Below, one piece after another: positions 1 through 17,921 of a stretch of 24,796 nt of DNA. The notes below the pieces were generated by a model that did no database searches, was not told the origin of the DNA, and saw nothing but the letters and a program-made list of their open reading frames with translations. How positions within the stretch are numbered: position 1 is the first letter of the stretch; each line of letters opens with the position of its first letter. The stretch comes from a virus. The stretch spans positions 1 to 24,796 of IMG/VR virus record IMGVR_UViG_3300049783_000694, one strand, 5' to 3'. The position numbers and the translations under genes were made by a program.

Positions 1-3000
1 ATCCACACGGTTGCCATGAAACAGTACCTCATCGTGGTTGTCGTGAGTGGCGAAACCAGAACGACGAGCGCCTGTTGCAAGGTTGTTTATGAAGTTTACA
101 CCACGGCTCGTACCTTCGGCACCAAAGCTATCTCCAGTTACAGTAAGACACATAGCTTCGCGCCCACCATGTGCGGAAGAGTTCACTACATCAAACTTGT
201 AGGTAGTGTTTGCTACAGCGATACCATAACTGGTCTGGGTGTTGTTGTCGCGATCAAGCATGGTCACAGTAGTGTTGTCGATAAGCCCTTCGATTACACC
301 TGCGGCCAGTATACCTTGGTGATCAAAGCCTGTGACGTCGCAGTCTCGCATAACAAGCTTCTCTGCGTTACCTACATGGATACCGCGATCACCATCGGTA
401 GCTCCATCAAACTGACCGGGTCCCCGTATACGGATACCATCAAACACGAGATCTGCCATAAAGCCGTTGTTACGTCGAATAAGGAGGTTGTTGCCCGTGT
501 CGATGTACGAGTCCTTGATAGGTGATACCAAGTGAATATTTGCGCCTACTGTCTTTGCCACCTTAACCCACTCACCTTTATGACCCTGACTAACACCCCC
601 ACTGTCGTAGTCTTCTTCGGTGAAATTTTCGTCGGTGCCAATATGTAACCACATACCATCTTCCATCAAAGCGGTGTAGTCCGTAGAGGAAACTGGGATA
701 ATTGTGTCACCTTTGTCCAAGTTACCAACGATTCCCATATTGCCACCAAGTGCTCCAACACGTTGCATCACACGTATGCCAGCACCATCAATAGTGTTCC
801 ACGGTGAAAAGTCTAACAATGCACCTGTCTCTTGGATCAGTCGAGCCTTGAGAGGGAGTATCAAGGAACCGTCAGTCCGAGCAGCGAACCCGTAGGTTAC
901 ACTACTTCCTATAGGACTGTTGATAACACCTTCACGACCCTCTGAGGCTGTTAGGAAGGCTTGCATACCTGTGTGAGAATCCGATGTACTTGAAACGTAG
1001 TCCGAAAGTTGAATATAGCGTTTAGCTAGGATCGTAGGCATTGAAAGCGGCGTTAGAACATCCGTCCACTCTGTCCAGCCACCATCGTAAGCACGCGCAG
1101 CAAGCTCAATTCCATCAGTACCTGCACTTTGACTTTTAATAATAAACTGTGCTCCACGGTTGCTACTACCAGCGAAACCCTGCCAACCTACTGCGCCCCT
1201 GTTGTCGAACGGGTCGTTTACTGGGTTCTGTGAGGAACTAGAGTGTCCTATGAAGCGGGTATCGAACCCAAAATCATTGTAGTCGTAATTCCCTGCTGTC
1301 CCGTAGTACGAATAAGCAACCGGTCCGGCACCCGCGACACTGGCAGTAACATCGGCAGTAACAATAGGTAATGTTGCAAAGGTGGAATCTCCGGCTACAG
1401 CCAGATCAAGAGTGATGGAAAGGTCACCAGTGATGTCAGCACCCGTGCTATTAGTATTAATCCGCTTTGAACCATAGTAGTTTAAGGTCGCTTCACCAGT
1501 GGCGCCGTTAAGTGTGATGTAATCTACTAACCCTGTATTACCAGCATTGGCGGATTGTATCTTAATAGCACCATCAGTCCCAAGGTTGCGGAGAAAAAGC
1601 GCGCCTGTGGCGGTACTAATATAAGCATTATTACCGTTGTGGAAGGCGGTCAGATCATTGCCCGTACCCAGATTTAGCACGCCATTGTCAGGGAGCGAGA
1701 TATTACCGGATACACCAAGATCGCCAGTGACGGTCGCTCCAGCAAAGGTAGGACTATCTGTAGTAGCAACACCTTGATTCAGAGCCTTTACGGCAGCTAT
1801 ATCAGTAAGTTCGCTATCCATAAGAGCGCCTGCAGCATGATCAAATGCCCAATTACTAGATATTGAGGTAGTAGTTGCCCCATTAACAGGTACGTCGTCT
1901 ATAGGTCTGAAGGTGTTAGACACAGCTTCGGTTGATACTCTACTTAGAATTAATTCTGATTTTGATACTACCGAAGTAAGTGCATCAGCGGTATCAGCAT
2001 TATCAAAGCCGCCGTATATATCAATGTAGTCTCCTGCTGACAATAGCATGATAGTATTGACCTTGATTGAGATGTCTCCGTAGGCCGAGCCTCGCGAGTA
2101 TGCGGTGCCGATAGTCTTTTCATCTAGAACACCGTTTTTTCGTGCTGCAAGTGTTCCTGTAATCCTGCTTGCGCCAGATTGTACAAAGAATACATTACAT
2201 AGAATTTGGTAATATCCTGTTTCAGATACAGTAACTCGTTCAGGGTTAGTAGAGTTGCTATGGGTGTAAATACTGTCCTTAGCATCTTCTACGTCCCAAC
2301 GTATAGGTTGAGGTGTTGTTCTGACATCTTCAGTAAGTATAGACTTTTCAAGGCGGATAGTTTGTAGTGTTAGAGCATCTGCGTCAAAAGCACTACCATT
2401 TAATGTTATACCCGCGCCGCCTGTATAGGTCGTGTTCGTGTAGTTAGCGGCATTAATGTTAGTAGCGCCTTGATTAGTAGTCCAGTCTATGTGCTCGTTA
2501 GCTACAAAACCTAATAGGTTATCATGGGTAACAATCGCCTCTATCTCACCTGCTGTTTGGTCGGCAGTAGCAGCCGGTTCTATGCCATCTAGTTTTGTAC
2601 CATCGGCAGCAACATCTCGACCATCAACCGTTCCGGTTACTGTTATGTTACCAGTGAAGTTAGCACCCGTGCTAGTGGTGGTGATCTTCTCTACACCGTA
2701 GTGCGACATTGAGGCTTCGCCGTTTGCACCGTTGGCTCGGAAGTAATCGACTACTCCCGTACCCGTGTTATCATCGGATTGTATTTTGACAACACCATCA
2801 GTCCCAAGGTTGCGGAGAAAAAGCGCGCCTGTGGCGTTATTAATGTAGCCATTAGAGCCGTTGTGGAAGGCGGTCATATCGTCGCCCGTACCCAACCTTA
2901 GCTCTGCACCATCAGGTAGTGAAATGTCACCAGAGACATTCAAGTCACCAGTTAAGTCGAACAGGCCCTCACTAAACACACCGACATCGGTATCGTGTGC

Positions 3001-6000
3001 CTTAATAGTGACTGTAGATGCTAGACCTCTTGACCAAAGCCTAACATCCGTTGGAGTTTCATCCCCGTCATTGTTGTTAGCGCGAATGTCTATATCATCC
3101 CCAGCATTAGCGGTGAAAATTACGGACTGTCCTACTTTTAGTAGTTGTATATTACCCTCGGTAGCAAGTTTACCAGAAGCTTTTATGTCACCAAAAGCTT
3201 CTAAACCAGCCTCGTCCAACTGCATTTTAGTTGCCGTGGAGTATGAAACACCAGCGGTCACCGCGCTGCCCAACTCGAAGGTCATGGTTGGGAGAGAGGT
3301 TAAGTCAGTGTTTACTACAATTCGGCCACCGTTGCCCAAGATATCTGGGATACCATTGGCATGGTTGAATGTAAGGTTTGCGTTACCCTGACCGTCGTTG
3401 ACTGTAAGAGCAACAGCCCCGCTACCTTGTCCTGCGATTATTGAAGAAGCAGATATATCTGACGCCCACTCAAGTTCGCCACTAGACCTGATTTTACCGC
3501 AAGAATTGACACCATCATTGCTGGTATTGACGGAGTTGTAGGTGAAGAATTCAAGACCGTGGGGGTCGCCATCTGTCCCGTCTTGGAAGGCAGCAATCAT
3601 TGCACGGCGGCGGCTGGTATTCGTTCCTGTAAAGGCCAAAGCACTAGACAAAACACCATCACCAAAAGCCGTGCTATTTTGACCCGAAAGTATTAGCGTG
3701 GCTTTTTCACCAGTAGCTACACCGTTTAGAGGACTAGGATTATCCCCACCGCGCACTTCGCCTACTGTCAAAATGCTATCTATTACTATATTACCGGATA
3801 CACCAAGATCGCCAGTGACGGTCGCTCCAGCAAAGGTAGGACTATCTGTAGTAGCAACACCTTGATTCAGAGCCTTTACAGCAGCTATATTAGTAAGCTC
3901 GCTATCCATTACTGCGCCTGCAGCGGTAACATTGATTGTGTCTGTTACGTCAGCAGCCGTTTCTATGCCATCTAGTTTTGTACCGTCGGTAGCAACATCA
4001 CGTCCATCAACTGTTCCAGTGACTGTTATGTTGCCAAAAGTGGCTAGGCCTGTGAACACAGCGGGACCGCTCACTTCTAGGGACTGATCATCCCCAATCA
4101 ATCTCATGACTTCAATAGTGTTGTTCGTGAAGTCAGACGGGTCATCGAACAATGCGATCGGGTCAGATGTGCTAACACCAAATACGAGGTCGGCCCTGCC
4201 AAAGGCATCTGCCGCCTGTAATTCTACGGAACCTCCAATACGACGACCAGAGCCGCCTGTAGAAGCATCACGGTTGTAGAACAAGAGTTCTCCGAGAACA
4301 TCACCCGCTGCACTCGTGCCACCCGCGATGCCAATCAGCATCCGACCAGCGGTGGTGTTGTCAATGGTATTGTATGTCTCTGTCCGCAGGATTGCTTCTG
4401 TGGAGTAGAAGGATGCGAGGTCAACGCCGTCTACCGTACCAGTGATGGCAAGGTTGCCAGTGATTGTCCCGCCAGTAAGCGGCAGTGCAGCATCAGCCGT
4501 TGAGCCTTGCGCAGCTGTTGCGTAGTTTGCCCCATCAAAAGCTTTGACCGCTGCAAGGTTGATAACTTCACTATCCATCAACGCGCCCGACGATGTGACA
4601 TTTGCGGTATCGGTTACGTTTGCCCCAGTCTCAATGCCTGATAGTTTAGTTTGTTCCGCGTCGCTAAACACGTTTGTGTTGGCATTACTTTCATAGGCTG
4701 TTTTGATCTGCGCCGCCGTTTGGTCAGCAGTTGCGGCTGTTTCGATTCCGGATAGCTTAGACTTCTCTTCGGTGAGAAAGCTGGCAGTCGTATTGACAAG
4801 AACAGTTGAGTGCGCCTGAACCGAAGAGCCAATGTCCGCATTCTGCAAGGCGCTGCCCGCAAGAGTTCCTTGTGCTGCGGTGGCGTAGTCAGCCGAATCA
4901 AACGCTTTAACTTGTGCAAGGTTCACCACCTCGCTGTCCATCAACGCACCCGCCGCCGTGACGTTGATCGCGTCGGTCACGTCAGCCGCCGTCTCGATAT
5001 TAGAAAGTTTGGTTTGTTCTGTATCAGTAAATGCGTTGGTGTTTGCGTTGCTCTCGTAGGTTGACTTGATCGCCGCTGCGTCTGCCGCAGGTTGGATAAT
5101 TGTCCACCCGCCCGCCGTCGCAGGGTTAGCCGCGTCCGCGATGAGTGTGTCACCCGCATTTAGATCAGTGGCGTAGAACGTACCTGCCACCGTGACAGCG
5201 TACATATCGCCGATAGCGACGCCAGTCGGGCTTGTATCCAGGTTTGGCGTGTTTGTTGCCGCGTCATACGAACCTTTGAAGGACACACCAGACGCGACGA
5301 CATTATCGACGTATGCTTTTACACTCTGCTGCGTCGGTACTTTGGTTGCCAAGTTTGAGGCCATCGTGTCTTCGTCGATGACAAAGTCCATGCCTGCTGT
5401 AGAGGTGTCGGCGGTTGCCACAACACCCGCCAGAGCAGAACCGTCGCCTGCAAAGTTAGTCGCCGTCACGGTTCCAGACACAGCAAGATCGCCAGTTACG
5501 GCTGCACCCGTGCTAGTGGTGGTGATCTTCTCTACACCGTAATGGAACATCGAAGCTTCGCCGTTTGCACCATTGGCTCGGAAGTAATCTACTATTCCCG
5601 TACCCGTGTTATCATCGGATTGTATTTTGACAACTCCGTCAACCGCGAAGTTGCGGATAAAGGTCGCGCCTGTGCCGTTATCAATGTAGCCATTAGAGCC
5701 GTTATGGAAGGCTTTCATGTCATTACCTGTGCCGAGCCTTAGCTGTTGGGTGTCAGGGAGTGAGATATCACCAGAGACATCAAGACTCCCAGTTACCGCA
5801 GCGCCTGCGCTAGTGGTGGTGAACCGCTCTGAACCATAGTAAGACATAGACGCTTGACCGTTTGCGCCGTTTGCTCGGAAGTAATCGGCTAATCCGCCCG
5901 CACCGTCGTCTGATACGATCTTAGTAGTACCATCAACCGCCCTGTTACGGATAAAAAGAGCGCCTGTTTCACTGTCTATATAAGAAGCAACCCCGTTGTG

Positions 6001-6990
6001 GAACGCTGATAGACCAGATGCGTCACCTAGTATTAGCATCGCGCCGTCGGGTAGTGAGAGATCACCGGACATATCAAGATTGCCTGTTATGTCTAAACCA
6101 CCGTTGGTTATATTCATTATCTCTGACGTGTTGTATGCGGTGTCAACGGTCACAGCGCTGCCTAACTGGAAGGTCATTTTTGGACCGGAAGTTGAATCAA
6201 CGTTTACAACAATTCGAGCACCATTACCTAGTACGTCTGGGATACCGTAGGCATGGTTGAATGTAAGGTTTGCGTTACCCTGACCGTCATTGACTGTAAG
6301 AGCAACAGCACCGCTGTCGTTCCCTGCCATAACCACATCTCCATAAAGGATGTCTGCAGTAACGTCTCCTGTGACAGTAAGATCACCGTTTATGCCAACA
6401 CCCGCGAATGTAGGACTGTCTGTAGTAGCAAGACCTTGATTCAGAGCCTTTACAGCAGCTATATCAGTTAGTTCGCTGTCCATTACAGCGCCCGCAGCAG
6501 TAACATTAACAGTATCAGTTACGTCAGCGCCTGCCTCAATTCCTAAGATTGTTCTGACCTGAGTCGCGCTTAAATCTTGGGGGTCGCCAGTGGTGCCTAG
6601 CGAACGGCCCTTGATGGTTTGTGTTGCCATATTTGCTAGTTTGGCATTATTAACAGCATTAGCAGCGATAGTCAATGCAGTTGCCCCGGTCACATCACCA
6701 GAGTGAGTTGCATTTGTGACTTTAGCATTATTCAGCACCACCGCGTCGTCCAAGTCGGTTAAAACTGATGAAAGAAAATCAGATGATGTATTAGTCAACG
6801 CAGAAGAATCTACGGCAAGATTATCTTCCGTGACTTCTTTTATAGTTACTATTGATTCGGCGCCATCATTCTTTTTAATGAATAAGTTGCCGTCAAATGT
6901 ATTGATCGCAACTTCACCCAACTCTAACTGAGCGGTCGTAGGAATATTCCCGTTTACTGCGCTTCTTTTTAATTTAATATTTGTAGTCAT
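1..6990 (-). CDS. Giant modular tail fibre/tailspike with beta-helix end (partial)
   Basis: I read the frame from ATG 6990 to base 1 and found no stop, so at least 2330 residues are encoded and the C-terminus lies outside. Residues 1-45 (IKLKRSAVNGNIPTTAQLEL, then a DGNLFIKKNDG segment) are a docking start shared in part with the 512-residue fibre. Next come duplicated linker modules (TKLDGIETAADVTDT, AAGAVMDSELT, ATTDSPTFAG) and repeated blocks with LRLGTGDDMTAFHNGSNGY. Residues about 1531-1686 look like a C1q/TNF-type jelly roll (RVTVSETGYYQILC, LAARKNGVLDE, MLLSAGDYIDIYGG). A pyocin-knob-like stretch with GGWTEWTDVL lies near 1885-1985. From about 1985 a tailspike start (YIQLSDYV) leads to parallel beta-helix turns (GIHVGNAEKLVMRDCDVTG, RSGFATHDNHDEVLFHGN) that run to the window edge. 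A receptor-binding or glycan-degrading tip is likely. AGAGGG precedes the start. Confidence 0.8.
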   Translation of the reverse strand, partial: MTTNIKLKRSAVNGNIPTTAQLELGEVAINTFDGNLFIKKNDGAESIVTIKEVTEDNLAVDSSALTNTSSDFLSSVLTDLDDAVVLNNAKVTNATHSGDVTGATALTIAANAVNNAKLANMATQTIKGRSLGTTGDPQDLSATQVRTILGIEAGADVTDTVNVTAAGAVMDSELTDIAAVKALNQGLATTDSPTFAGVGINGDLTVTGDVTADILYGDVVMAGNDSGAVALTVNDGQGNANLTFNHAYGIPDVLGNGARIVVNVDSTSGPKMTFQLGSAVTVDTAYNTSEIMNITNGGLDITGNLDMSGDLSLPDGAMLILGDASGLSAFHNGVASYIDSETGALFIRNRAVDGTTKIVSDDGAGGLADYFRANGANGQASMSYYGSERFTTTSAGAAVTGSLDVSGDISLPDTQQLRLGTGNDMKAFHNGSNGYIDNGTGATFIRNFAVDGVVKIQSDDNTGTGIVDYFRANGANGEASMFHYGVEKITTTSTGAAVTGDLAVSGTVTATNFAGDGSALAGVVATADTSTAGMDFVIDEDTMASNLATKVPTQQSVKAYVDNVVASGVSFKGSYDAATNTPNLDTSPTGVAIGDMYAVTVAGTFYATDLNAGDTLIADAANPATAGGWTIIQPAADAAAIKSTYESNANTNAFTDTEQTKLSNIETAADVTDAINVTAAGALMDSEVVNLAQVKAFDSADYATAAQGTLAGSALQNADIGSSVQAHSTVLVNTTASFLTEEKSKLSGIETAATADQTAAQIKTAYESNANTNVFSDAEQTKLSGIETGANVTDTANVTSSGALMDSEVINLAAVKAFDGANYATAAQGSTADAALPLTGGTITGNLAITGTVDGVDLASFYSTEAILRTETYNTIDNTTAGRMLIGIAGGTSAAGDVLGELLFYNRDASTGGSGRRIGGSVELQAADAFGRADLVFGVSTSDPIALFDDPSDFTNNTIEVMRLIGDDQSLEVSGPAVFTGLATFGNITVTGTVDGRDVATDGTKLDGIETAADVTDTINVTAAGAVMDSELTNIAAVKALNQGVATTDSPTFAGATVTGDLGVSGNIVIDSILTVGEVRGGDNPSPLNGVATGEKATLILSGQNSTAFGDGVLSSALAFTGTNTSRRRAMIAAFQDGTDGDPHGLEFFTYNSVNTSNDGVNSCGKIRSSGELEWASDISASSIIAGQGSGAVALTVNDGQGNANLTFNHANGIPDILGNGGRIVVNTDLTSLPTMTFELGSAVTAGVSYSTATKMQLDEAGLEAFGDIKASGKLATEGNIQLLKVGQSVIFTANAGDDIDIRANNNDGDETPTDVRLWSRGLASTVTIKAHDTDVGVFSEGLFDLTGDLNVSGDISLPDGAELRLGTGDDMTAFHNGSNGYINNATGALFLRNLGTDGVVKIQSDDNTGTGVVDYFRANGANGEASMSHYGVEKITTTSTGANFTGNITVTGTVDGRDVAADGTKLDGIEPAATADQTAGEIEAIVTHDNLLGFVANEHIDWTTNQGATNINAANYTNTTYTGGAGITLNGSAFDADALTLQTIRLEKSILTEDVRTTPQPIRWDVEDAKDSIYTHSNSTNPERVTVSETGYYQILCNVFFVQSGASRITGTLAARKNGVLDEKTIGTAYSRGSAYGDISIKVNTIMLLSAGDYIDIYGGFDNADTADALTSVVSKSELILSRVSTEAVSNTFRPIDDVPVNGATTTSISSNWAFDHAAGALMDSELTDIAAVKALNQGVATTDSPTFAGATVTGDLGVSGNISLPDNGVLNLGTGNDLTAFHNGNNAYISTATGALFLRNLGTDGAIKIQSANAGNTGLVDYITLNGATGEATLNYYGSKRINTNSTGADITGDLSITLDLAVAGDSTFATLPIVTADVTASVAGAGPVAYSYYGTAGNYDYNDFGFDTRFIGHSSSSQNPVNDPFDNRGAVGWQGFAGSSNRGAQFIIKSQSAGTDGIELAARAYDGGWTEWTDVLTPLSMPTILAKRYIQLSDYVSSTSDSHTGMQAFLTASEGREGVINSPIGSSVTYGFAARTDGSLILPLKARLIQETGALLDFSPWNTIDGAGIRVMQRVGALGGNMGIVGNLDKGDTIIPVSSTDYTALMEDGMWLHIGTDENFTEEDYDSGGVSQGHKGEWVKVAKTVGANIHLVSPIKDSYIDTGNNLLIRRNNGFMADLVFDGIRIRGPGQFDGATDGDRGIHVGNAEKLVMRDCDVTGFDHQGILAAGVIEGLIDNTTVTMLDRDNNTQTSYGIAVANTTYKFDVVNSSAHGGREAMCLTVTGDSFGAEGTSRGVNFINNLATGARRSGFATHDNHDEVLFHGNRVD
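1430..1707 (-). repeat. LGTG-AFHNG block, copy 4
   Basis: It encodes LNLGTGNDLTAFHNGNNAYI, FLRNLGTDGAIKIQSANAG and a diverged second half with LNGATGEATLNYYGSKRINT. DNA identity to copy 3 is high only around 1570-1615, which suggests patchy conversion between copies. Confidence 0.8.
1701..1821 (-). repeat. 121-bp repeat, copy 1 (giant fibre)
   Basis: This stretch matches 3789-3909 at a constant offset of 2088 bases with about three mismatches over 121 bases. It encodes the linker from AAGALMDSE-adjacent residues through ALNQGVATTDSPTFAG and ATVTGDLGVSGNI. A more diverged third relative lies at about 6360-6480. Near-identity at DNA level points to recent duplication or gene conversion inside the gene. 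Confidence 0.85.
2655..2928 (-). repeat. LGTG-AFHNG block, copy 3
   Basis: It encodes LRLGTGDDMTAFHNGSNGYI, FLRNLGTDGVVKIQSDDNTG and ASMSHYGVEKITTTS. It is near-identical in DNA to copy 2 over its downstream half. It also shares the AAGGTTGCGGAGAAAAAGCG segment (plus strand) with copy 4, so the copy looks like a patchwork of its sisters. Confidence 0.85.
3223..3435 (-). repeat. GAVALTVNDGQGN block, copy 2
   Basis: It encodes GAVALTVNDGQGNANLTFNH, GIPDILGNGGRIVVN and MTFELGSAVT. DNA identity to copy 1 is highest in the first 80 bases of the coding sense and falls off downstream, where the DNA differs but the protein pattern stays. Confidence 0.85.
3789..3909 (-). repeat. 121-bp repeat, copy 2 (giant fibre)
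   Basis: Partner of 1701-1821 with about three base differences. It also encodes ALNQGVATTDSPTFAG and ATVTGDLGVSGNI. In this copy the module is followed by different downstream sequence (IVIDSILTVGEVRGG), so the repeat marks a joint between otherwise unlike segments. Confidence 0.85.
5496..5769 (-). repeat. LGTG-AFHNG block, copy 2
   Basis: It matches copy 3 at 2655-2928 at a constant offset of 2841 bases, including a 38-base exact run beginning at 5504 and 2663 and a long near-exact stretch around the TGTTATCATCGGATTGTATT segment. It encodes LRLGTGNDMKAFHNGSNGYI and GANGEASMFHYGVEKITTTS. Confidence 0.85.
5785..6063 (-). repeat. LGTG-AFHNG block, copy 1
   Basis: First of four blocks of about 92-98 residues with the order SLPD, LxLG, AFHNG, YID, TGALFIRN, a DYFRANGANG segment and TTTSAGAAVTG. 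This copy is the most diverged in its first half (GAMLILGDASG). It is followed directly by copy 2, so the two form a tandem pair. The block resembles the GNDLxIYHDGSNSYI modules of many fibre proteins and is probably a trimeric shaft segment. Confidence 0.8.
6112..6330 (-). repeat. GAVALTVNDGQGN block, copy 1
   Basis: About 73 residues with GAVALTVNDGQGNANLTFNH, GIPDVLGNGARIVVN and MTFQLGSAVT. The plus-strand stretch GGCATGGTTGAATGTAAGGT and its flank is shared almost without change with copy 2 at 3223-3435. It is probably another fibre-shaft or small globular module. Confidence 0.85.
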
Positions 6991-7042: not shown

Positions 7043-8581
7043 TTAAAACGTTCCTCCATCAACTGCAGTTATCGCAACGGCACCAGAAGTTACCGTAAAG
7101 TTACCTGATGCGAATGACGCAACGCCCTTGATAGCAGTTGTAGCATTTATTCCAGCAATTACAACACCAGCTCCTTCGCCCGTGCCTGAAACAGAAAGGC
7201 CAGTTGAAGCTGTTACGCCAACTGTTGCCACATAATTACCAGTGGTATCAGCACCTAGAGCAACTGAATTAGGTGCAATCGTTGTTGTAAACGATAGATT
7301 ACCTGATCCGTCGAATGATGGACTTGAACCAGTCACATCGCCCGTGAGTGTAATAGTTCTTCCGGTTGCCCATGTTGTAGCAGTAGAAGCATTGCCTGTA
7401 AGCGAACCCTCAAACGTATTGGCAATAAAGGTCTCAGCACCAACCGTCCATTTGCCAACAGTTTCATCCCATATAAGAGATTTGTTAGTAGAGATGCCTC
7501 TTTCAATTTCAAACCCGGCGTTTTGAGAAGGCACTCCGGTTTCATCGCTATTAAGCAATATTATAGCATCGCCGATATTGACTTCATTCGAATTGACTGT
7601 TGTCGTAGTACCGTTGACGATAAGATCACTTGAAATCACAACCGCGCCTGTTCCGTTTGGCGTAAATATGATATCACCATCAACATCAGTAGAAGATATT
7701 ATATTTCCGTCAAATGTGAGGCTATCAACTGCAAGACTTGTAAGACCAGATATAGCACCGTCGAGCGCAAAGCTAACTTGATTGTTAGTAACGGTCGAAG
7801 TAATATTACTTCCGCCTACGAATGTCAATGTATCCGTGCTTGGGACTATATCGGTTCCCGAATCGCCTGCGATGTTAAGGTCTGTGGAAATTGTAGCTAT
7901 TCCAGCCGCGGTCAGTCGACCTTGTTGATCAACTGTGAATGTTGGGATTTGAGTACTGCTACCGTATGATGCCGGAGTCACAGCAGTATCATCAAGATCA
8001 ATAGAGATAGAATTATCGGCTACTGATGTTGAAATACCTGTAAGACCACTGAACACGATGGTCTGACCTCTAGATACAGGATCTGCAGTTCCGGTATCTG
8101 CGTCAATAGTAAAAGCATTGGCCACAGATAGTTCATCATCTACATATTTTTTAGTTGCAGCATGTTGTGCTGCGGTAGGGTCGGTGACATTTATTATCTG
8201 CGAAGTGCTTGCATCAATCGAACCCGTACCTGCAGGAGAAAGTGTAATGTTACCGTTCGTATTAGTCGACGTTATTGCATTTCCGTCGATAGTTATATTA
8301 TCAACATTTAAAATATTAATTTTGCCACTGCCATCAACAATAATAGCACTATTTGCAGTAAGCGTCCCTGGAACGTGATCTAACTTACTTGTAAAATATT
8401 TGCCGCCTATTGCTTCAATATTGGCTGCTTCTCCGTTTGTTTCTGTCCCTGTTCCTACATATAACCGATCTCCGCCATTTGATTGCGTGCCTGTTAAATA
8501 TGAATATGCAAATTCGCCTTGAGCAAGTGCAGTAGGTGATCCTGTTACAGAGGACCGTTTAATTCTAATAGTCGATGTCAT
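7043..8581 (-). CDS. Tail fibre-like structural protein (512 residues)
   Basis: A 512-residue Ser/Thr/Gly/Asn-rich protein. It starts TSTIRIKRSSVTGSPTALAQ, a docking-like segment also seen at the start of the giant fibre at 6990. Residues about 85-150 hold short beta repeats (NITIDGNAITST, GNITLSPAGTGSID) and the AAQHAATKKYVDDEL helix typical of T4-like fibres. A central block near residues 325-385 has TTTVNSNEVNIGDAIILLNS, then QNAGFEIERG and SLIWDETVGKWTVG, a combination I associate with cyanophage fibre proteins. The end reads TAVDGGTF, like the NGGHF end of the gene before it. There is no signal peptide or enzyme motif. Translation probably couples to the 79-residue gene by the TAATG overlap and a strong GGAGGT site 8 bases upstream. 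Role: fibre shaft or adhesin, from family resemblance. Confidence 0.75.
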   Translation of the reverse strand: MTSTIRIKRSSVTGSPTALAQGEFAYSYLTGTQSNGGDRLYVGTGTETNGEAANIEAIGGKYFTSKLDHVPGTLTANSAIIVDGSGKINILNVDNITIDGNAITSTNTNGNITLSPAGTGSIDASTSQIINVTDPTAAQHAATKKYVDDELSVANAFTIDADTGTADPVSRGQTIVFSGLTGISTSVADNSISIDLDDTAVTPASYGSSTQIPTFTVDQQGRLTAAGIATISTDLNIAGDSGTDIVPSTDTLTFVGGSNITSTVTNNQVSFALDGAISGLTSLAVDSLTFDGNIISSTDVDGDIIFTPNGTGAVVISSDLIVNGTTTTVNSNEVNIGDAIILLNSDETGVPSQNAGFEIERGISTNKSLIWDETVGKWTVGAETFIANTFEGSLTGNASTATTWATGRTITLTGDVTGSSPSFDGSGNLSFTTTIAPNSVALGADTTGNYVATVGVTASTGLSVSGTGEGAGVVIAGINATTAIKGVASFASGNFTVTSGAVAITAVDGGTF

Positions 8582-8833: not shown

Positions 8834-8841
8834 TATTTATA
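8834..8841 (-). promoter_or_regulatory. Second late promoter-like box overlapping a stop codon
   Basis: A second exact TATAAATA on the minus strand. Its TAA (8839-8837) is the stop codon of the BppU-like gene, and it lies only 13 bases before the ATG of the 79-residue gene, so a transcript from it would have a very short leader. It may be a real late promoter, or just the result of a leucine-stop codon pair in AT-rich DNA. Confidence 0.35.
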
Positions 8842-9172
8842 AAGAAACGGTAGGAAGGATAGTAAGTAATCCTTCCATCAATTTTGTTTTTATGACGCCG
8901 TTATACATTATTAAATCATATCTATATTTACCGGGTGCGACGGTCAGAGTAGAAGCAGATGGTATGGTCAACATAATATTATTAGGATCGCCATCTCCTA
9001 AATCTATAATGATATCTATATTAAAAGCTAATGTCGAAGCATATATTTTTTTTGCACTGCACGTGAAAGTTTCATCGGTAATTACAATTTCTGCGTCATT
9101 GACATCAAAAGCGTCAACGGTTATCGAATAATCAATACCTTGATCTACATATAAATTTACATTCGTGGTCAT
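8837..9172 (-). CDS. Small BppU-like or Ig-like virion protein
   Basis: A 111-residue beta-strand protein. It starts NVNLYVDQGIDYSITVDAFD, has a VTDETFTCSAKKIYAST-type middle and ends PGKYRYDLIMYNGVIKTKLM, EGLLTILPTV. This layout, where a dependent variable strand is followed by GKYxYDL and a final GxLxILP strand, resembles the N-terminal domain of BppU-type baseplate proteins and a small protein common in T4-like marine phages. It is AT-rich (30% GC at 8881), in contrast to the neighbouring chaperone. Its Shine-Dalgarno is AAGGA, and an exact late promoter box lies 28 bases before the start. Its TAA stop is embedded in a second TATAAATA box. A fibre-attachment role is plausible but not shown. 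Confidence 0.5.
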   Translation of the reverse strand: MTTNVNLYVDQGIDYSITVDAFDVNDAEIVITDETFTCSAKKIYASTLAFNIDIIIDLGDGDPNNIMLTIPSASTLTVAPGKYRYDLIMYNGVIKTKLMEGLLTILPTVSL

Positions 9173-9231: not shown

Positions 9232-9675
9232 TTAGCCGATGCCGAATAATGTATCTAGAATCTCCGGCGTGATATCATCAATCCAGGAACCTAGTATTAA
9301 TACGAACTCGTTAGTTCGATAAACTCTAGCAGCGGTAGCCCACTCGATCTGGACAGAAGCTGCTTGGATAGGGGAAAGGTAGCTCAAAAACGAATCCATA
9401 CTTGGAGGCCATTGACCTCTCGAGGCTATTACCGCCTCATCCGCTGTTAAAATGTCAAGGGCAATAAGACCCTCGCAGAACATAGACTTGCTGATGAACT
9501 TTATCGAGCGGATATACTCAATAGAAGGGGTATCAATATGTACAATGTCAACACCAGATGAAATCAATTCGACATAATGTCGGTTCCCGGGGTCAACGGG
9601 AATAGTCATTTCTATGCCGTCAAATGTTGCTGTTATACTACCGTCTTTTCTGTATTTCGCATTCGTGATACTCAT
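9232..9675 (-). CDS. Putative tail fibre assembly chaperone
   Basis: A 147-residue protein if started at the ATG at 9675, which I prefer because AAAGGAA lies 9 bases upstream and the frame then avoids overlapping the fibre gene. An earlier ATG at 9753 would add 26 poorly placed residues. The N-terminus reads as a small beta domain (SITATFDGIEMTIPVDPGNR, then HYVELISSGVDIV), like the start of fibre-associated small proteins of marine phages. The rest is helical with many aromatic residues and a WPPSMDSF segment. No catalytic motif was seen. A small gene directly after a fibre-tip gene is the usual place for a chaperone such as T4 gp38, and its raised GC (50% at 9421) matches the fibre tip beside it, not the next gene. 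The function is inferred from context. Confidence 0.55.
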   Translation of the reverse strand: MSITNAKYRKDGSITATFDGIEMTIPVDPGNRHYVELISSGVDIVHIDTPSIEYIRSIKFISKSMFCEGLIALDILTADEAVIASRGQWPPSMDSFLSYLSPIQAASVQIEWATAARVYRTNEFVLILGSWIDDITPEILDTLFGIG

Positions 9676-9683
9676 GATATCAA

Positions 9684-9690
9684 TTCCTTT
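9684..9690 (-). promoter_or_regulatory. Shine-Dalgarno that fixes the chaperone start
   Basis: The minus strand reads AAAGGAA 9 bases before the ATG at 9675. No comparable site precedes the in-frame ATG at 9753, which would overlap the fibre gene by 38 bases. This supports a 147-residue product. Confidence 0.7.
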
Positions 9691-9715
9691 CTGCGTTTTT
9701 TTGTATCTGTAACTA

Positions 9716-11389
9716 TCACGAGACCAACTCCGCATCTGCTGTAAATTCCACAAAGATGAAGTTGCCTGAGCCTGATAGCATTGTAGCGTTGCATCCTACT
9801 GAACCGATCCGAGAATTTTGAACAGCCAACCCCTCCTTATAACCGGTAGATGTAGTCAGGGACAGAGCTACTGTGGGGGCAACTCTTTTTTCATTGGCAA
9901 AAGTCGTTGATACGCCCAGAATCCAATCACCAGACGCATACGCCCCTTGAGCGAACAGAACACCTTCTTCGTAATACCGCTGACAACGTACAAGCTCCAA
10001 AGCGTAATTACTATATTCAAAAGGCGTTATGTTCACCCCAGCCTCCACTTGGACCCCTCTAAAAGTACCGCCTGAAATTGTTACCACAACGTTCACATAG
10101 GTTGGCAGTGTGAACGAGCTACCCTTGCCTTGGGAAACCCCATTCACCGTGACTGTTGCGGTCCCTACCCAGTTGATACAGTAAGTACCCCCATAAACAT
10201 TCGCGGCCTCAATGACCTGAGTTACACCACCAGAATAGGCTGTCATAATGCGTCCAGCCTCTGTGCCAGTAAACGATATGCTTTGACCAACTGTGTTGAC
10301 GTACCACCGATCTAGAGTAAATTGGTTTGCTGATTGAGTTGCAGTTCCGGATATATATCCCCGTTGGTTTACTTGGCCTGATCCGTTGATGATCAGGTTT
10401 CGACCCGAAAGCGTGTATAGGGAGTTAAGTTGTGACGCATTAACAGTCACGCCGTCAAGAATATTCAACTCCGATGTGGTGGCAGTAAGACCATCCAACA
10501 CATTAAGTTCGTCTGTCGTCGCAGTCACGCCATCCATTATGTTGAGTTCGCCGGTAGTAGCAGTCACGCCATCCATTTTGTTGAGTTCGCCGGTAGTAGC
10601 AGTCACGCCGTCCAAAATATTCAACTCCGATGTCGTCGCCGTCACGCCATCTAAGATATTCAATTCGCCAGCAGTAGAGGTGATCTCTGTGCCACCCAAA
10701 GATAAAGAACCACTAATTACAACATCGCCAGCTACGTCTAGTTTAGATGTAGGATCGGGACTAGTTATACCGATACCTACCGTACCTGTCTGAGTTATAA
10801 CAAAGGGGTTATTATCAGGGGAAGAACTATCCTCGACAACAAAAGAATTGCCTGTGCCCGTCTGTGTAATGCGCACGGCATCATCGGAACTGTTCGCCTC
10901 CAGCCTAAGAACCCCAGTTGAATTAATTGTACCATTTATTATAAAATTGGTCGCAGATAATGTTAGATCATTCGCTGTAGCTAAAGTAGTCGAGTCTGAA
11001 GTAAGTGAAAATGTTTGCGATGTCGCTGTTATGACATCTGTACTTAGGATAAAAGTATTAGCAGTAATAGAGTTACTGGTGTGATTAGATATTGTTTCAA
11101 GTGCTGTAAAACTAGTATTTGCTGTAAATGTTGTAGCAGATACTATAGATAATGCAGCCGGTGTTGTTACGGTACCCCCTCGTAAAGAAGTTCCCACTGC
11201 AACTTCAGAAGCAGAAAATATTCCTACCAAAGATGTATTGCCAGTGGTGGTTCCTCCTGCCGTTGTTACTTCAGCGGTGAGTACTTTAGAACCGATATCA
11301 CTTGATATAGCATTTGTTCTTTCGAACCAATCGCCAAATGTATTGGTACCTTTGACTAGAACATTGCTGAGATATGAAGGTATGGCCAT
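9716..11389 (-). CDS. Tail fibre protein with tandem ELN repeats and a binding-tip domain
   Basis: A 557-residue protein. Residues 1-40 (KGTNTFGDWFERTNAISSDI) resemble the baseplate-binding start of marine T4-like fibres. Residues 40-200 are Ser/Thr-rich shaft. A GTVGIGITSPDPTSKLDVAG segment, common in phage fibres, lies near 205. Residues about 238-315 are six 13-residue repeats of the type ELNILDGVTATTS. The tip from about residue 323 starts RNLIINGSGQVNQRGY, contains FTLDRWYV, and continues to EAGVNITPFEYSNYALELVR and CQRYYEEG. This is the widespread fibre C-terminal domain thought to bind surface sugars. GC content rises from about 37% in a shaft stretch (11041) to 47% in the tip (9721), which suggests exchange of the tip. 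The gene is followed after 40 bases by a likely chaperone. Role: host recognition, inferred from family. Confidence 0.8.
   Translation of the reverse strand: MAIPSYLSNVLVKGTNTFGDWFERTNAISSDIGSKVLTAEVTTAGGTTTGNTSLVGIFSASEVAVGTSLRGGTVTTPAALSIVSATTFTANTSFTALETISNHTSNSITANTFILSTDVITATSQTFSLTSDSTTLATANDLTLSATNFIINGTINSTGVLRLEANSSDDAVRITQTGTGNSFVVEDSSSPDNNPFVITQTGTVGIGITSPDPTSKLDVAGDVVISGSLSLGGTEITSTAGELNILDGVTATTSELNILDGVTATTGELNKMDGVTATTGELNIMDGVTATTDELNVLDGLTATTSELNILDGVTVNASQLNSLYTLSGRNLIINGSGQVNQRGYISGTATQSANQFTLDRWYVNTVGQSISFTGTEAGRIMTAYSGGVTQVIEAANVYGGTYCINWVGTATVTVNGVSQGKGSSFTLPTYVNVVVTISGGTFRGVQVEAGVNITPFEYSNYALELVRCQRYYEEGVLFAQGAYASGDWILGVSTTFANEKRVAPTVALSLTTSTGYKEGLAVQNSRIGSVGCNATMLSGSGNFIFVEFTADAELVS
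10446..10679 (-). repeat. Six-copy 39-bp in-frame tandem repeat in the 557-residue fibre
   Basis: The anchor GTCACGCC (GTAAGACC in the second copy) recurs on the plus strand at 10446, 10485, 10524, 10563, 10602 and 10641, exactly 39 bases apart. Each unit encodes 13 residues of the type ELNILDGVTATTS. Copies differ by a few bases, mostly conservative. Such repeats form beta-rich shaft turns in fibre proteins and can change copy number by slippage or recombination. The array sits where GC content rises toward the tip. Confidence 0.9.
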
Positions 11390-11641: not shown

Positions 11642-14600
11642 TTATTTTTGAAGTGCTATTGCTCTTAATCTGCTTGCTCTTGGATATATCGCCTTATTAG
11701 TACTGGACATGCCTATCTTGATTTGAAATTCACTATATCTGCTATATATAGACTCAACTACCGGCGACACAGTACCGTCGCCATCAGAAGGTCCAGTTGC
11801 AGTGAATGTGACTCCAACAACATTCGATCCCGCACCAAAGTCGGTAAAATCGGTCGAACCAGTCTTGACAATTATATAATCGTCGCTTGCCTCCATCGCA
11901 GAACCGTTTATTACCGCAGGATTGCCCGATGTTGTGTATTGAATTACACCTGTATCACCTTCGCCCGTAAGGAATTCTGCAGGTACTATATAAGTTGTAT
12001 CGATGAAATTATCCTTATTGACACTCGAAGAAACTGCACTCTTGATAGCAGACATTTCAAACCATGGTCTGTCATTTATGTCAGTTATGTCAGTATTATT
12101 TTTAATTCTCGCCCATACTTGTATGGCAGTGCCTTCAGGACGATATTCTTGTAGTTGCACAAGCAAATCTTCCGCTATATTATCATCCGACAACTCTATA
12201 ATTTTTGATATATATTTGCTAGTAAGATTACCGCCCTTTGAAAGTAATTCGCCAGTTATATCATTATTTAGTTGGTTGCTTGTTAATACTGTGCCCATGA
12301 TTGCTTCATCTAATACGGGAGACAGATAATCAGATTCAGATGTTATTGTTGCATTTATCGAAAATGATTTCGCACCGCTAAGAAGTCTTATTTCCTCGGA
12401 TCTCGAAAGCACATTTTTGACAGTAGAAAATTCATAATCTTCATTCGGATAGATTGACAATTCAGAACCTATAGTAGTTCCTTCTGTAGTTATGACTTTA
12501 AATTGTATATCAGTGAGTCCATCAAATTTCAGATATGATGGTCTTATCATCGCAGACGAGTATTCATGAACGCCGAATTGGGCTATGGTATGCACAGGAA
12601 CGAGTGTCACATTTGCCAACGCCAGTCCTACAGGCAATGTTATAGTACCAGTAGGCGCATACGGGTTGGGAACCGAAGAACTCGCCCGTGTATACGTTAC
12701 TGATAGTTCTGTGCCATTCAATATAGTCTTATGGCGATCAGGAAGAATTGATCTTATATGCGCACCAGCAAAAAACTTGCCGTTTGAGTGTGTAATATCA
12801 AACTTGAAATTTGTTGTATCTATACTGTCAACTATACCTGTGCCGAAGTCGACGGAAGATATAACACCCGTATCTCTTACGGTGGCAGTAACACCTTCGT
12901 ATATAGTCACCGCGGAATTGAGAATATAATCAAATCCTCCCATGAACACATCGGTGCCGTCGATGTCTATAATTGTCGAAGTCGTATTACTCGTTCCATC
13001 AACAATAGTATCACCAACTTGCAGAACACCAGCGCCGTCAATTGCTATGTTGAGTATTTCCGTGCTCCTGACGGGTTCACCTTCTCTAAAGAACATTGTT
13101 GGCAATGCCGTGTTGGCCGTGATAAATTCCACGTCCTCGATAGAAAATCTACCTACAGAAGAGATTGGAGTTGCTATCGTAGCCCCGGTACTCATACGAT
13201 TGAAACGAATTTTCAAGTCAATATCTGGAACAATATCCCAGTTTAAGTTGTTGTTTGTTGTATAGTATGTTCCAAACCGTCCGCGATTGGTCACAGGATT
13301 GCCTGAAGTAACGTCAGTCCCGCCAAGACGAGATACCCAAAAATATGTATCAGGGTTAAGTCCTTCTGTGTGTATAACGAAAGCGTATTGTGTATTGTTA
13401 TACAGGAATATAGGCGAGTCAAAGTTTACATTGGTTGCATTCGCAATGCCGTCCGTGCTGATGCTTAAACGAGTGTCATTGCGGTTCATCCAGACAACAC
13501 TATAAGGAACGGTTGTTCTTGTAATTCCTCCTGCGCTATCCATTTCTCTAAGTTCAAACCAAACGCCGAGGCTTGGGTGTATTGCAGAAAGCCAAATGTC
13601 TATTGAACTTAAGAAAACGCCTTCGACATCTTCAGCTTCATCCACGAATATCGAATATGCTGCACAAGACGGTCCTACTTCGAACCAACCGGCGGGGGTA
13701 GCACTAGATCTTTGAATTGTGCTAGTTCTGCTATCAATTACTTCTCTTCTTTCGACGCTCTGTGTCTTAGTAGAGATAATTGTATTCTGTTTTTGTAGGT
13801 TTAATCCCGAAGCAATAAAAGAGCCTTTACTGTAGCTCGAAGCATCCGAATCGTTAGTAGGACTATCTGTTATTATGACTTCTTTTTCACCAACTCGGAA
13901 TCGCTTATTGGTCCCGTTAGGCAATCTCATGAATATAAGAACTTCGCCGTTGCTGTTTGAGAATACACTTGATCCCTCAGTTCCTATATCCGAAAGATCA
14001 GTATCGTAGTCAAGATAACCCGTATTTCTATCTTGAGTAGCATCGAAATATTGTGACACTGCTACTGGCGAAGCAAAGTCATTCATACTTTCGCCGTCAA
14101 AGAAAACATGAAACCTTGTGTTTGGTTTTAGGCCGTATGCGTATAGTTTTATAGTTTGCGCTCTTATATACGGCACCAGAGAAATATCTGTTACAAAATT
14201 GCCTAAATCATATGATTCAGATTCAGTAGAAACGGTTGTTTCTATATTTGTTCTTTGTTCTTGAATTGTTTCTTCTGTAGTTACTTTACCGCCGTATACG
14301 ATGAAATACCGAGCTTTTGCAGCTATATCAAATCCAACTCGGGTTTTTATATCTTCGAAAGTGGTGCCGTCGTTTATTGCAGGCAAAGATGATGCTCTCC
14401 GGCTACTGCCGTTGCCGGATATAAAATCTGCAACTTGTTGTACTGTGCTAAATGTTCTGAGTAATGTCTCATTACCGCCGAAGTGCATATCGCGGAAGTT
14501 ACGGTGATAGACTTTATATACATTGGACGTGGTACCAGATATAGCACCCGTGCCTATTTTTTGCCAAGCACCAATTTCAGTCGAAATTACCTTTGACTCC

Positions 14601-17600
14601 GGCGTGTCGTTACCAAAGTCTATAGTTTTATCTACTGTTGTCGTATCAGCCCAAGTATCAATGTCGGGGTATACGCTCATGCCTCCAATGAAACGATAAG
14701 AACTAAGTTCCACGTTTCTCGTAGTTGTCGCAAACAGTTGTTCTTTCAGCACTTTTTCAGCATATGGAATATGAACCAGTGCTCCGGTTTTTACAGCAGT
14801 AAACGCAGCGCCAGATACAAACCTGGTGTCGAAACCCTCCACATTAATCGGAGGCTGAATTGATTTGTCTTTTCTATTCACCGCGATATTATAATCTGTG
14901 TTTGTTACATCCGAAAGAGTATGGTCGATGAATGGGTTGATGAACACGCCGTTTTTGAATCTGTCAAGTCCATTTTCATCTAAAACTAGAAGATCAAGGG
15001 TGTTCTTTTCCAATAAACTAAGAGCATTGTAATATTCGAGATTCTTAACTCTTTGTTTTATAGCACCGATGTCGGACATTTTGTGTCTACTGAATGTTAT
15101 TTTTTCGGAAACGATGCCTTCATCTTTTCTTCCAAGTATTTTAGCATAATTTTCTGATAGAGAAGGAAATGGCGGCACGTATATATTCGCAATGGACATA
15201 TAAGTTTCTGGAACGGTGGGGAACATAGGATATACACTAGGCTGGCCTTTGAAAACTTTAAAATCTCCATTAGATTTGACCGCAAGAATATCTCTTCTCG
15301 GCAGATAATATGAATAATCAAATTTTATATTTGTGCCCGGTATCGGTGACTTGTAACCTCCGGCAGGTATAGTAAATGCTGTTGAAGCCGCTGGATTGCT
15401 AGCTGCAGTTGCAATTGAAGTTCCTGTCGTCACAGTAGGAGATGTAACTGTACGGAAATCTATATAATTTCTCTGTAACGAATTTAGATCTTCTGTTTTT
15501 ATAGTTGTATTAGATTCTATGTCATCATCGACGGGATAAGAATCTATAGAGAAATACGATCCGCTGCCTGCAAGATCAGCTTCGTAGTAATCAAAAATAA
15601 TTAAGAGATGATCACTTGTCGTGATAGGAGTATCAGTTACAATAAAAGAGGTACCGTATGAAAATTCACTTTCATTTTTTCCTAAAAGAAAACTACTTGT
15701 TACATCATCGCCATCTGTAATGGCAGTAATTTCAGCAGTGTGTTTTCTCACTTGGCGTATTTTTATAGCATCTGGGACGCCCAGGAAGAATTTCTCAAGA
15801 TTACCGTATGTAGAACCATCAATTTTAACATACCTACTTGCTCTAATAGTTTTTGATCTCTCTGAGGTTAGATCTTTGATTGCCCGATATGAAAGTTTGC
15901 TTGGCGTTGATACAGAAAAGGTTTCTCCCAAATCAATTGAAATAGAGGTTGGAGTTGCTGTTACAACTCTTCTCGCGCCCGTGCCGTATCCTTTTGAATT
16001 TAGATCTATTAAATCGCCAGACACATAACTCTTTGTCCATGCTACCCCACCTGCGGTTGTAAGCGCATTTGTAGCAAGCGTCATTGACAAGTTACTTTCG
16101 ATGCTTTTAACAATGTAAGAGTTTGTGTCTATAACAACTCTATCGCCAACATTTAGGTTGTTAAAGTTCGTACCTACGCCAGTGGCAACCGGGTCACCTG
16201 AAGTTATGGAAATCGTTCCTGTGCCGGTAATAGTTGCATTGCCAGTGACATGCAACACTATAGTTTCTTTTGCAAGAGATGCGAGTGTGCCCGTACCGTA
16301 AATGAGTGTTTCGTTTACCCCCAGAGAAACAACACCTGATAAAGCACCACCAGTACTGATATTACCTGTTCCTTGCTTCATGAAAGTAAGAGTTGTGTCA
16401 GGGTCGCCTAGATTGTTCTTTACACTTTTCGTATAATCATTACCCACGTATATCAATCTAGATGAATTAGAAGAATCGTAAAGAACAGCCGATCCATTTT
16501 CGAGTTTTATATCTGCAAAGAAATTTGAAGTCTTAATTGAACGAACGTCGGCAAAGATCTTACCAGCATTCATTTCTATATCACCAAGATAAAATCTTAC
16601 GGTCGCAGTCGGTTGTCCGTATTGGCCACTTTCTTCAACGAATGAAATTAGTCGTGCAACACCTATCTGGGTGCCTGATGCAGCAGCATTAAAAGCAACT
16701 GAGGAAGATATTCTGCTCTCTGCAGTGTCGTAAAGTTGAACTATATTATAGGAATCAGGTTCCGGCATGCCCATAATCTCGTTCGCAAGAACATGGGCGC
16801 CGGATGGTATGAAAGAATACTGATTGTCTATGAAAATAGAACTGGATGATTTATCTGTTTCGATCGGTCTAGTAGAAACCGTTTCCACTTCATAACCTTT
16901 TACATACGCAAGACCTTTTTCGATTTCTACGACTAATTTATCCGCGTCTCCACCTTCGGCTTCCGAAAATCTACCACCGTTAGAACCTGTGTTCAAATGT
17001 TCTCTGGTTCTAATGTCCCATCCTCTTACGACATAGTCGCCGGATTCGTCAAAAGTTCTTTTCGCAAGATTGTCGGCAATCTCATTGTATACTGTTTTTT
17101 CATTTTTGACATAAATTTGACCTTCTCGAAGTTCTAAAAGCACAAAATTGCTGTCGTCTGAAAGGTCCACGTCTAGATTAGATACATTTAATGTTAGGTT
17201 GCATCGAAGTCTATCTGCGCCTGGCGCATTGAAGTTATTATAACCCTGTGCATTATCTAATAGAGTACTATCTTCGTCGGAATTGACAACAAGAAATTCT
17301 GCTTTCATATACACACGCTTGTTGGCACTAGAATTGAAAGGGTCTATAGCAATTTTCTGTGAGTCAAACTTGACGAAGAAACCATTTACATACAGAACAC
17401 CGCCCGTAATGCCAAATATGGAACCTTTGCCTGTTATATTCACAAGTGTTGTACTAAATGATCCTGTAGCTGTGTCTGTAGTGTACGAAATACTCTCGCT
17501 AGTAAAAACAACTACCGATTCGCTATTATTTAAATCCGTGTAATTGACAAACAGAACAGATACACCAACTTCGGAAGGATCTGCCTCGGCATGAATTACT

Positions 17601-17905
17601 CTTGCTTTCAACCCGGTCACAGCACCAGTCAATTCGCCGCCTACTATGTCAGATATATCGTTGATGTTGATTTGAACACGAACATAGTCAACTGGATCTT
17701 GGGGATCGAACGTGCCGCCCAATACTCGCGAACCGTTTTGGAATATATGATCGCCGAATCTTTCGATTTGATTTTGAAGTATTGTTTGGAGTTGAGTTAA
17801 TTCTCTAGCTTGTACCGCAAGACCTGGCTTGAAAAGAACCCGGTGATAATTTTTATCTTCGTCGAAATCATCGAAATACGGTAATCTGTTTAGATCTATT
17901 GTCAT
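11642..17905 (-). CDS. DUF4815-family virion structural protein, giant
   Basis: A 2087-residue protein. The N-terminus (residues 1-80: PYFDDFDEDKNYHRVLFKPG, then QARELTQLQTILQNQIERFG) is the hallmark of DUF4815 proteins, which in T4-like marine phages usually sit just after gp8. The rest is mostly beta-rich with few hydrophobic runs, no signal peptide and no membrane segment. A conserved block near residues 870-1000 holds YYLPRRDILAV then KISFSRHKMSD-like residues and RVKNLEYYNALSLLEK. The last 37 residues (YSRYSEFQIKIGM, then RASRLRAIALQK) look like the family end. Residues about 2000-2050 form a foreign-looking insert with TDFTDFGAGSNVVGVTFTATG. The start has GAAGGT 6 bases upstream, and the stop TAA overlaps the Shine-Dalgarno of the next gene. 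It takes the place where T4 has gp9 and gp10, so a peripheral baseplate or fibre-connector role is inferred. No enzymatic motif was seen. Confidence 0.8.
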   Translation of the reverse strand: MTIDLNRLPYFDDFDEDKNYHRVLFKPGLAVQARELTQLQTILQNQIERFGDHIFQNGSRVLGGTFDPQDPVDYVRVQININDISDIVGGELTGAVTGLKARVIHAEADPSEVGVSVLFVNYTDLNNSESVVVFTSESISYTTDTATGSFSTTLVNITGKGSIFGITGGVLYVNGFFVKFDSQKIAIDPFNSSANKRVYMKAEFLVVNSDEDSTLLDNAQGYNNFNAPGADRLRCNLTLNVSNLDVDLSDDSNFVLLELREGQIYVKNEKTVYNEIADNLAKRTFDESGDYVVRGWDIRTREHLNTGSNGGRFSEAEGGDADKLVVEIEKGLAYVKGYEVETVSTRPIETDKSSSSIFIDNQYSFIPSGAHVLANEIMGMPEPDSYNIVQLYDTAESRISSSVAFNAAASGTQIGVARLISFVEESGQYGQPTATVRFYLGDIEMNAGKIFADVRSIKTSNFFADIKLENGSAVLYDSSNSSRLIYVGNDYTKSVKNNLGDPDTTLTFMKQGTGNISTGGALSGVVSLGVNETLIYGTGTLASLAKETIVLHVTGNATITGTGTISITSGDPVATGVGTNFNNLNVGDRVVIDTNSYIVKSIESNLSMTLATNALTTAGGVAWTKSYVSGDLIDLNSKGYGTGARRVVTATPTSISIDLGETFSVSTPSKLSYRAIKDLTSERSKTIRASRYVKIDGSTYGNLEKFFLGVPDAIKIRQVRKHTAEITAITDGDDVTSSFLLGKNESEFSYGTSFIVTDTPITTSDHLLIIFDYYEADLAGSGSYFSIDSYPVDDDIESNTTIKTEDLNSLQRNYIDFRTVTSPTVTTGTSIATAASNPAASTAFTIPAGGYKSPIPGTNIKFDYSYYLPRRDILAVKSNGDFKVFKGQPSVYPMFPTVPETYMSIANIYVPPFPSLSENYAKILGRKDEGIVSEKITFSRHKMSDIGAIKQRVKNLEYYNALSLLEKNTLDLLVLDENGLDRFKNGVFINPFIDHTLSDVTNTDYNIAVNRKDKSIQPPINVEGFDTRFVSGAAFTAVKTGALVHIPYAEKVLKEQLFATTTRNVELSSYRFIGGMSVYPDIDTWADTTTVDKTIDFGNDTPESKVISTEIGAWQKIGTGAISGTTSNVYKVYHRNFRDMHFGGNETLLRTFSTVQQVADFISGNGSSRRASSLPAINDGTTFEDIKTRVGFDIAAKARYFIVYGGKVTTEETIQEQRTNIETTVSTESESYDLGNFVTDISLVPYIRAQTIKLYAYGLKPNTRFHVFFDGESMNDFASPVAVSQYFDATQDRNTGYLDYDTDLSDIGTEGSSVFSNSNGEVLIFMRLPNGTNKRFRVGEKEVIITDSPTNDSDASSYSKGSFIASGLNLQKQNTIISTKTQSVERREVIDSRTSTIQRSSATPAGWFEVGPSCAAYSIFVDEAEDVEGVFLSSIDIWLSAIHPSLGVWFELREMDSAGGITRTTVPYSVVWMNRNDTRLSISTDGIANATNVNFDSPIFLYNNTQYAFVIHTEGLNPDTYFWVSRLGGTDVTSGNPVTNRGRFGTYYTTNNNLNWDIVPDIDLKIRFNRMSTGATIATPISSVGRFSIEDVEFITANTALPTMFFREGEPVRSTEILNIAIDGAGVLQVGDTIVDGTSNTTSTIIDIDGTDVFMGGFDYILNSAVTIYEGVTATVRDTGVISSVDFGTGIVDSIDTTNFKFDITHSNGKFFAGAHIRSILPDRHKTILNGTELSVTYTRASSSVPNPYAPTGTITLPVGLALANVTLVPVHTIAQFGVHEYSSAMIRPSYLKFDGLTDIQFKVITTEGTTIGSELSIYPNEDYEFSTVKNVLSRSEEIRLLSGAKSFSINATITSESDYLSPVLDEAIMGTVLTSNQLNNDITGELLSKGGNLTSKYISKIIELSDDNIAEDLLVQLQEYRPEGTAIQVWARIKNNTDITDINDRPWFEMSAIKSAVSSSVNKDNFIDTTYIVPAEFLTGEGDTGVIQYTTSGNPAVINGSAMEASDDYIIVKTGSTDFTDFGAGSNVVGVTFTATGPSDGDGTVSPVVESIYSRYSEFQIKIGMSSTNKAIYPRASRLRAIALQK

Positions 17906-17921
17906 TTCATACCTTCTTTTT

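Follow-up and report, generated by a model that had tools for sequence, protein, structure and literature searches.

A long, repeat-built tail-fibre gene in a putative marine T4-superfamily phage and its modules shared with a contig carrying T5-like genes

The fibre locus and its phage lineage

The DNA analysed here (hereafter the window, meaning the whole stretch) is a linear 24,796-bp fragment from IMG/VR. At its left end lies a minus-strand open reading frame that begins with an ATG at 6990 and runs through 2330 codons with zero stops to position 1, where it is still open at the window edge. A stop-free run of this length is far above chance, and the frame matches the tail-fibre families phrog_24456 (E 4e-72) and phrog_892 (E 6e-34), confirming the single uninterrupted fibre frame that a prior reading of the sequence alone had described. 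A plus-strand ORF at 1-525, like the other ORFs antisense to the fibre, was interpreted as a shadow of its frame. Upstream of the fibre, toward higher coordinates, the next gene encodes a 512-aa fibre-like protein; beyond it come small genes, the gene for a 557-aa fibre, and then VrlC and the three genes for baseplate wedge proteins. The main features of the window are:

1..6990, minus strand: long tail-fibre gene, 2330 codons in the window, full length estimated at ~2632 aa by extension along the related contig L007
7043..8581, minus strand: 512-aa fibre-like protein (phrog_15769) directly upstream of the long fibre, found in the same place in the sister contig L008
11642..24730, minus strand: T4-superfamily backbone, comprising a VrlC-like protein (2087 aa) and three baseplate wedge proteins, ordered as in phiN3

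The baseplate wedge proteins of 994 and 593 aa (window 19965-22949 and 22949-24730) are nearest to those of Sinorhizobium phages phiN3 and phiM12, at 35-43% identity, and then to those of Caulobacter phage Cr30. The order gp6, gp7-like, gp8, VrlC, small gene, fibre is common to the window and phiN3, and the long fibre gene sits downstream of the baseplate wedge and VrlC genes as this order predicts. phiN3 and phiM12 (Emdodecavirus) nevertheless differ from the window in having one annotated 781-aa fibre with an assembly protein and no long second fibre. From these similarities we assign the window to a T4-superfamily phage that is nearest to phiN3/phiM12 and too distant from them for genus membership. 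Given that phiN3/phiM12 and then Cr30 are the nearest relatives, and that the gene order is that of phiN3, an alphaproteobacterial host is likely.

Three smaller features lie upstream of the long fibre gene. A 39-nt tandem repeat of ~5 copies (10444-10677) in the 557-aa fibre gene codes for ELNILDGVTATT-type repeats. A 173-aa gene with a listed TTG start (9232-9753) adjoins that fibre gene in the position of the phiN3 fibre assembly protein, and has weak relatives in Paracoccus phage Shpa and Ochrobactrum phage ORM_20. Finally, a 111-aa protein (8837-9172) matches phrog_1084 and also phrog_3304, the latter with a T5-type label (L-shaped tail fibre assembly).

Module organisation of the long fibre

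Motif positions, a DNA repeat search and a windowed protein comparison divide the long fibre into the following modules, listed from the N-terminus:

6721..6990, minus strand: residues 1-90, putative N-terminal virion anchor (77% identical in L008; GC3 0.36, nearer to the backbone)
6361..6564, minus strand: residues 143-210, linker of the ADVTD..LTDIAAVKALNQG type (motif and windowed protein comparison)
6091..6360, minus strand: residues 211-300, GAVALTVNDGQGN block 1 (97.4% nucleotide identity to L007)
5467..6090, minus strand: residues 301-508, AFHNG blocks 1 and 2 (motif and protein comparison)
5305..5430, minus strand: residues 521-562 (..TSTAGMDFVIDEDTMASNLATKVPTQQSVKAYV), matching P-SCSP1u gp28
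4483..5079, minus strand: residues 638-715 and 759-836, duplicated linker pair (73% amino acid identity)
4027..4464, minus strand: residues 843-988, module common to L007 (86% amino acid and 88.6% nucleotide identity)
3772..4020, minus strand: residues 991-1073, linker holding one copy of a 92-nt exact repeat (3788-3879)
3430..3771, minus strand: residues 1074-1187, module common to L007 (74% amino acid identity)
3196..3429, minus strand: residues 1188-1265, GAVALTVNDGQGN block 2 (motif and protein comparison)
2626..2955, minus strand: residues 1346-1455, AFHNG block 3 (motif and protein comparison)
1891..2385, minus strand: residues 1536-1700, probable C1q/TNF-like jelly-roll domain (low-confidence model with coherent C1q/TNF matches)
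1732..1890, minus strand: residues 1701-1753, linker overlapping the second copy of the 92-nt repeat (1700-1791)
1402..1731, minus strand: residues 1754-1863, AFHNG block 4 (motif and protein comparison)
1036..1353, minus strand: residues 1880-1985, suggested earlier to be pyocin-knob-like (no relatives in the loci searched)
1..1035, minus strand: residues 1986-2330, first half of the C-terminal tip, suggested earlier to be a beta-helix (86% amino acid identity to L007)

The repeat content that the sequence-only reading had proposed, namely four AFHNG blocks, two GAVALTVNDGQGN blocks and duplicated linkers, is borne out by these comparisons. The AFHNG motif occurs exactly four times (residues 329, 427, 1374 and 1782) and the GAVALTVNDGQGN motif exactly twice (residues 227 and 1191). 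The AFHNG blocks, of ~110 residues each, are 65-80% identical at the nucleotide level in the pairs measured, and the two GAVALTV blocks are 78% identical to each other. Besides the duplicated linker pair, residues 143-210, 991-1068 and 1701-1764 are related, and six DNA repeat families (D1-D6) are consistent with the protein repeats. The longest exact internal repeat is the 92-nt one.

The single-sequence model of residues 1536-1702 has PDB fold matches that are mostly C1q/TNF (E down to 8e-5) and include a domain of the cyanophage A-1(L) short tail fibre; no relatives of this domain were found in viral contigs, and the model was therefore built without an alignment. The C1q-like jelly roll proposed earlier thus gains modest fold support and remains probable, but the model has a pLDDT of 49 and the region has no Pfam match. 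The model of the C-terminal tip, built on L007 with a two-sequence alignment, reached a pLDDT of 28.6. Searches of Pfam, NCBIfam and PDB sequences returned no match for the knob-like region (1880-1985), nor any to a beta-helix or other family for the tip, and relatives of the tip were found in L007 but in no cultured phage, bacterial genome or other viral contig. A Pfam Spike_JR1 match at residues 1775-1808 was below cut-off and falls inside an AFHNG block, and NCBIfam and weak Pfam matches were dismissed as chance.

Related fibres in T4-like and T5-like contigs

Two T4-like contigs, L008 and L009, are close relatives of the window (82-83% nucleotide identity over the backbone), and the VrlC of L008 is 87% identical to the window's at the amino acid level. 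At the same site L008 carries a fibre frame that extends over 2063 codons or more. Its residues 1-90 are conserved, while past residue 90 the similarity to the window is mostly confined to scattered modules, with identities of roughly 25-50%. The two fibres therefore show the conserved N-terminal part and variable distal part by which tail fibres are recognised. Because residues 1-90 are conserved while the rest differs, they probably form the N-terminal virion anchor, and a swap point just after the anchor would fit this pattern. The L008 fibre (13854-19364, continued in L179) has exact internal repeats of its own, of 91 and 55 nt, so the fibre of the window is not alone in having such repeats.

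A second relative, contig L007, starts inside a fibre gene (L007 2-4240), and the N-terminal anchor region thus lies off the contig. The L007 fibre has counterparts of four stretches of the window's fibre, residues 211-410, 843-988, 1074-1187 and 1978-2330, arranged in the same sequence, and is without 511-842, most of 989-1073, and 1188-1977. It ends ~302 residues past the point at which the window stops, which suggests that the window's fibre ends about 302 codons beyond the edge, for a total of ~2630 aa. Extending the gene leftward along this relative, as had been proposed, allowed a C-terminus to be read: no Pfam match to the Peptidase_S74 chaperone domain was found in that of L007, the window's own C-terminus lying outside the window. 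L007 also encodes a Radical-SAM-like protein (7543-8490, between fibre and terminase) that has no close relative in most of the T5-like contigs checked.

These relatives bear on whether the frame is an assembly artefact in which two fibre genes, or one shorter gene, were joined through internal repeats. The many repeats, including the 92-nt exact one, would provide sites for such a join, and all three contigs (window, L007 and L008) break off within the long fibre gene, suggesting sequence that is hard to assemble. However, the frame is open throughout, its longest exact repeat is shorter than ordinary 150-base reads, and the corresponding site in L008 independently holds an open frame no shorter than 2063 codons. 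L007, also an independent contig, preserves the succession of residues 843-988, 1074-1187 and the tip. A wrong join through the two 92-nt copies would have separated 843-988 from 1074-1187, whose order L007 keeps, and is therefore disfavoured. We consider an artefact improbable.

Nucleotide identity between the window and L007 is patchy, ranging from 77 to 97%: residues 211-300 are 97% identical and the sequence just before them 77%, while 301-410, 843-988 and the tip are at 87-89% and 1074-1187 at 78%. An exact run of 176 nt (window 6202-6377) covers the start of GAVALTVNDGQGN block 1. The juxtaposition of 97% with 77% and 87% identity, together with the exact run, points to recent recombination. 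Over most modules shared with L007, variation at third codon positions exceeds that at the first two by a factor of 2-3 (0.19 vs 0.08 for the tip), which shows selection on the fibre protein. The plentiful repeats and rearrangements might otherwise recall a degraded or inactive, pseudogene-like repeat array, but with this third-position excess and 2330 stop-free codons we regard decay as very improbable.

The L007 fibre is followed by genes for a tail terminator and the small subunit of terminase, and the terminase and portal of this contig are nearest to those of T5-like phages. The modules of the window's fibre are thus shared with a contig that carries T5-like genes, although the junction between fibre and T5-like genes rests on one contig. 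A fibre at the contig end could instead mean that L007 is chimeric, its fibre coming from a T4-like relative, such that this fibre would be a variant within one T4-like lineage and no distant exchange would have occurred. The T5-like relatives checked carry their fibre-like genes in other places, in most cases immediately upstream of the gene for the terminase large subunit, and in none of them does a long fibre directly precede the tail terminator; moreover, L007-type terminases (98-100%) and the T4-like L008 both occur in metagenome 3300049783. On the other side, the L007 fibre ends at an ordinary stop ~150 bases before a tail terminator on the same strand, which together with the terminase small subunit keeps the T5-like order. 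Fibre sharing between distant phages is also documented: Alteromonas phages A5 and V22 have closely related fibres and belong to distant families (PMC10579305), and a large survey found recent cross-family mosaicism only in receptor-binding proteins (PMC10684548). We therefore consider a chimera unlikely, though less so than a mis-assembled window.

Base composition was compared through GC3. The baseplate and VrlC genes of the window lie at 0.27-0.32, whereas most distal fibre modules lie at 0.4-0.58; some linkers and the C1q-like block, at 0.23-0.35, are backbone-like. The L007 fibre has a GC3 of 0.46, against 0.23-0.32 for the other genes measured there. The distal fibre thus mostly matches neither backbone, and repeat-rich coding may contribute to this difference.

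Known long fibres and a model of module exchange

Single fibre genes of this kind have precedents. Among cultured cyanophages, S-CREM2 has one annotated long tail fibre (gp85) of 14,916 bp, ~4971 codons, and S-B68 has one (QBP06148) of 9,318 bp, ~3105 codons. Like the window's gene, these are single very long fibres of T4-like marine phages, and their linker and AFHNG-type stretches match; they differ in being longer, in having another tip and host group, and in that the similarity is local only (~40% at the amino acid level). Since both are longer, the size and one-gene arrangement that the sequence-only reading had singled out are not unusual, although its picture of one polypeptide that docks by its N-terminus and carries a stack of modules is supported. 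The fibre gp28 of cyanophage P-SCSP1u (PDB 8i4m) likewise has the ADVTD linker, the KVPTQQSVKAY stretch and AFHNG-like blocks, but it is a 1079-aa protein of a T7-like podovirus in which the window's N-terminal anchor has no match. On the virion this protein is trimeric in its N-terminal domains, the distal fibre being unresolved in the structure (PMC10575957).

By these comparisons the fibre product would form a homotrimer, fixed to the tail by its N-terminal ~90 residues. The repeated linkers with the AFHNG and GAVALTV blocks would make up a long shaft with globular inserts, one of them probably a C1q-like jelly roll, and a C-terminal tip of ~650 residues would bind the receptor. By recombining at its repeated modules, the gene may grow longer or shorter and acquire a different distal part, and its distal modules may be traded with unrelated phages, presumably ones with the same hosts. 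We place at roughly 85% the probability of this reading as a whole, in which a marine T4-superfamily phage carries one real, unsplit tail-fibre gene with an anchor, a repeat shaft, a tip and recombining distal modules exchanged with unrelated phages. Somewhat less firmly, we favour the view that the distal modules, 77-97% identical at the nucleotide level, passed recently and block by block between a T4-like and a T5-like phage whose backbones are unrelated, very long fibres thereby constituting a pool of exchangeable receptor-binding parts shared across phage families.

Neither the size nor the modularity of the fibre is new, and the process is already known in phages. Compared with the A5 and V22 fibres, what is shared here is separate modules within one long fibre, in T4-like and T5-like contigs known from sequence alone. 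With the principle already established (PMC10684548), the value of the locus is that of a well-resolved case: the patchy identities, with 97% next to 77%, allow exchanges to be placed within one gene, and the fixed anchor, the shaft rich in repeats and the tip, which lies next to two unrelated gene sets, make a clean natural example of how phage recognition changes.
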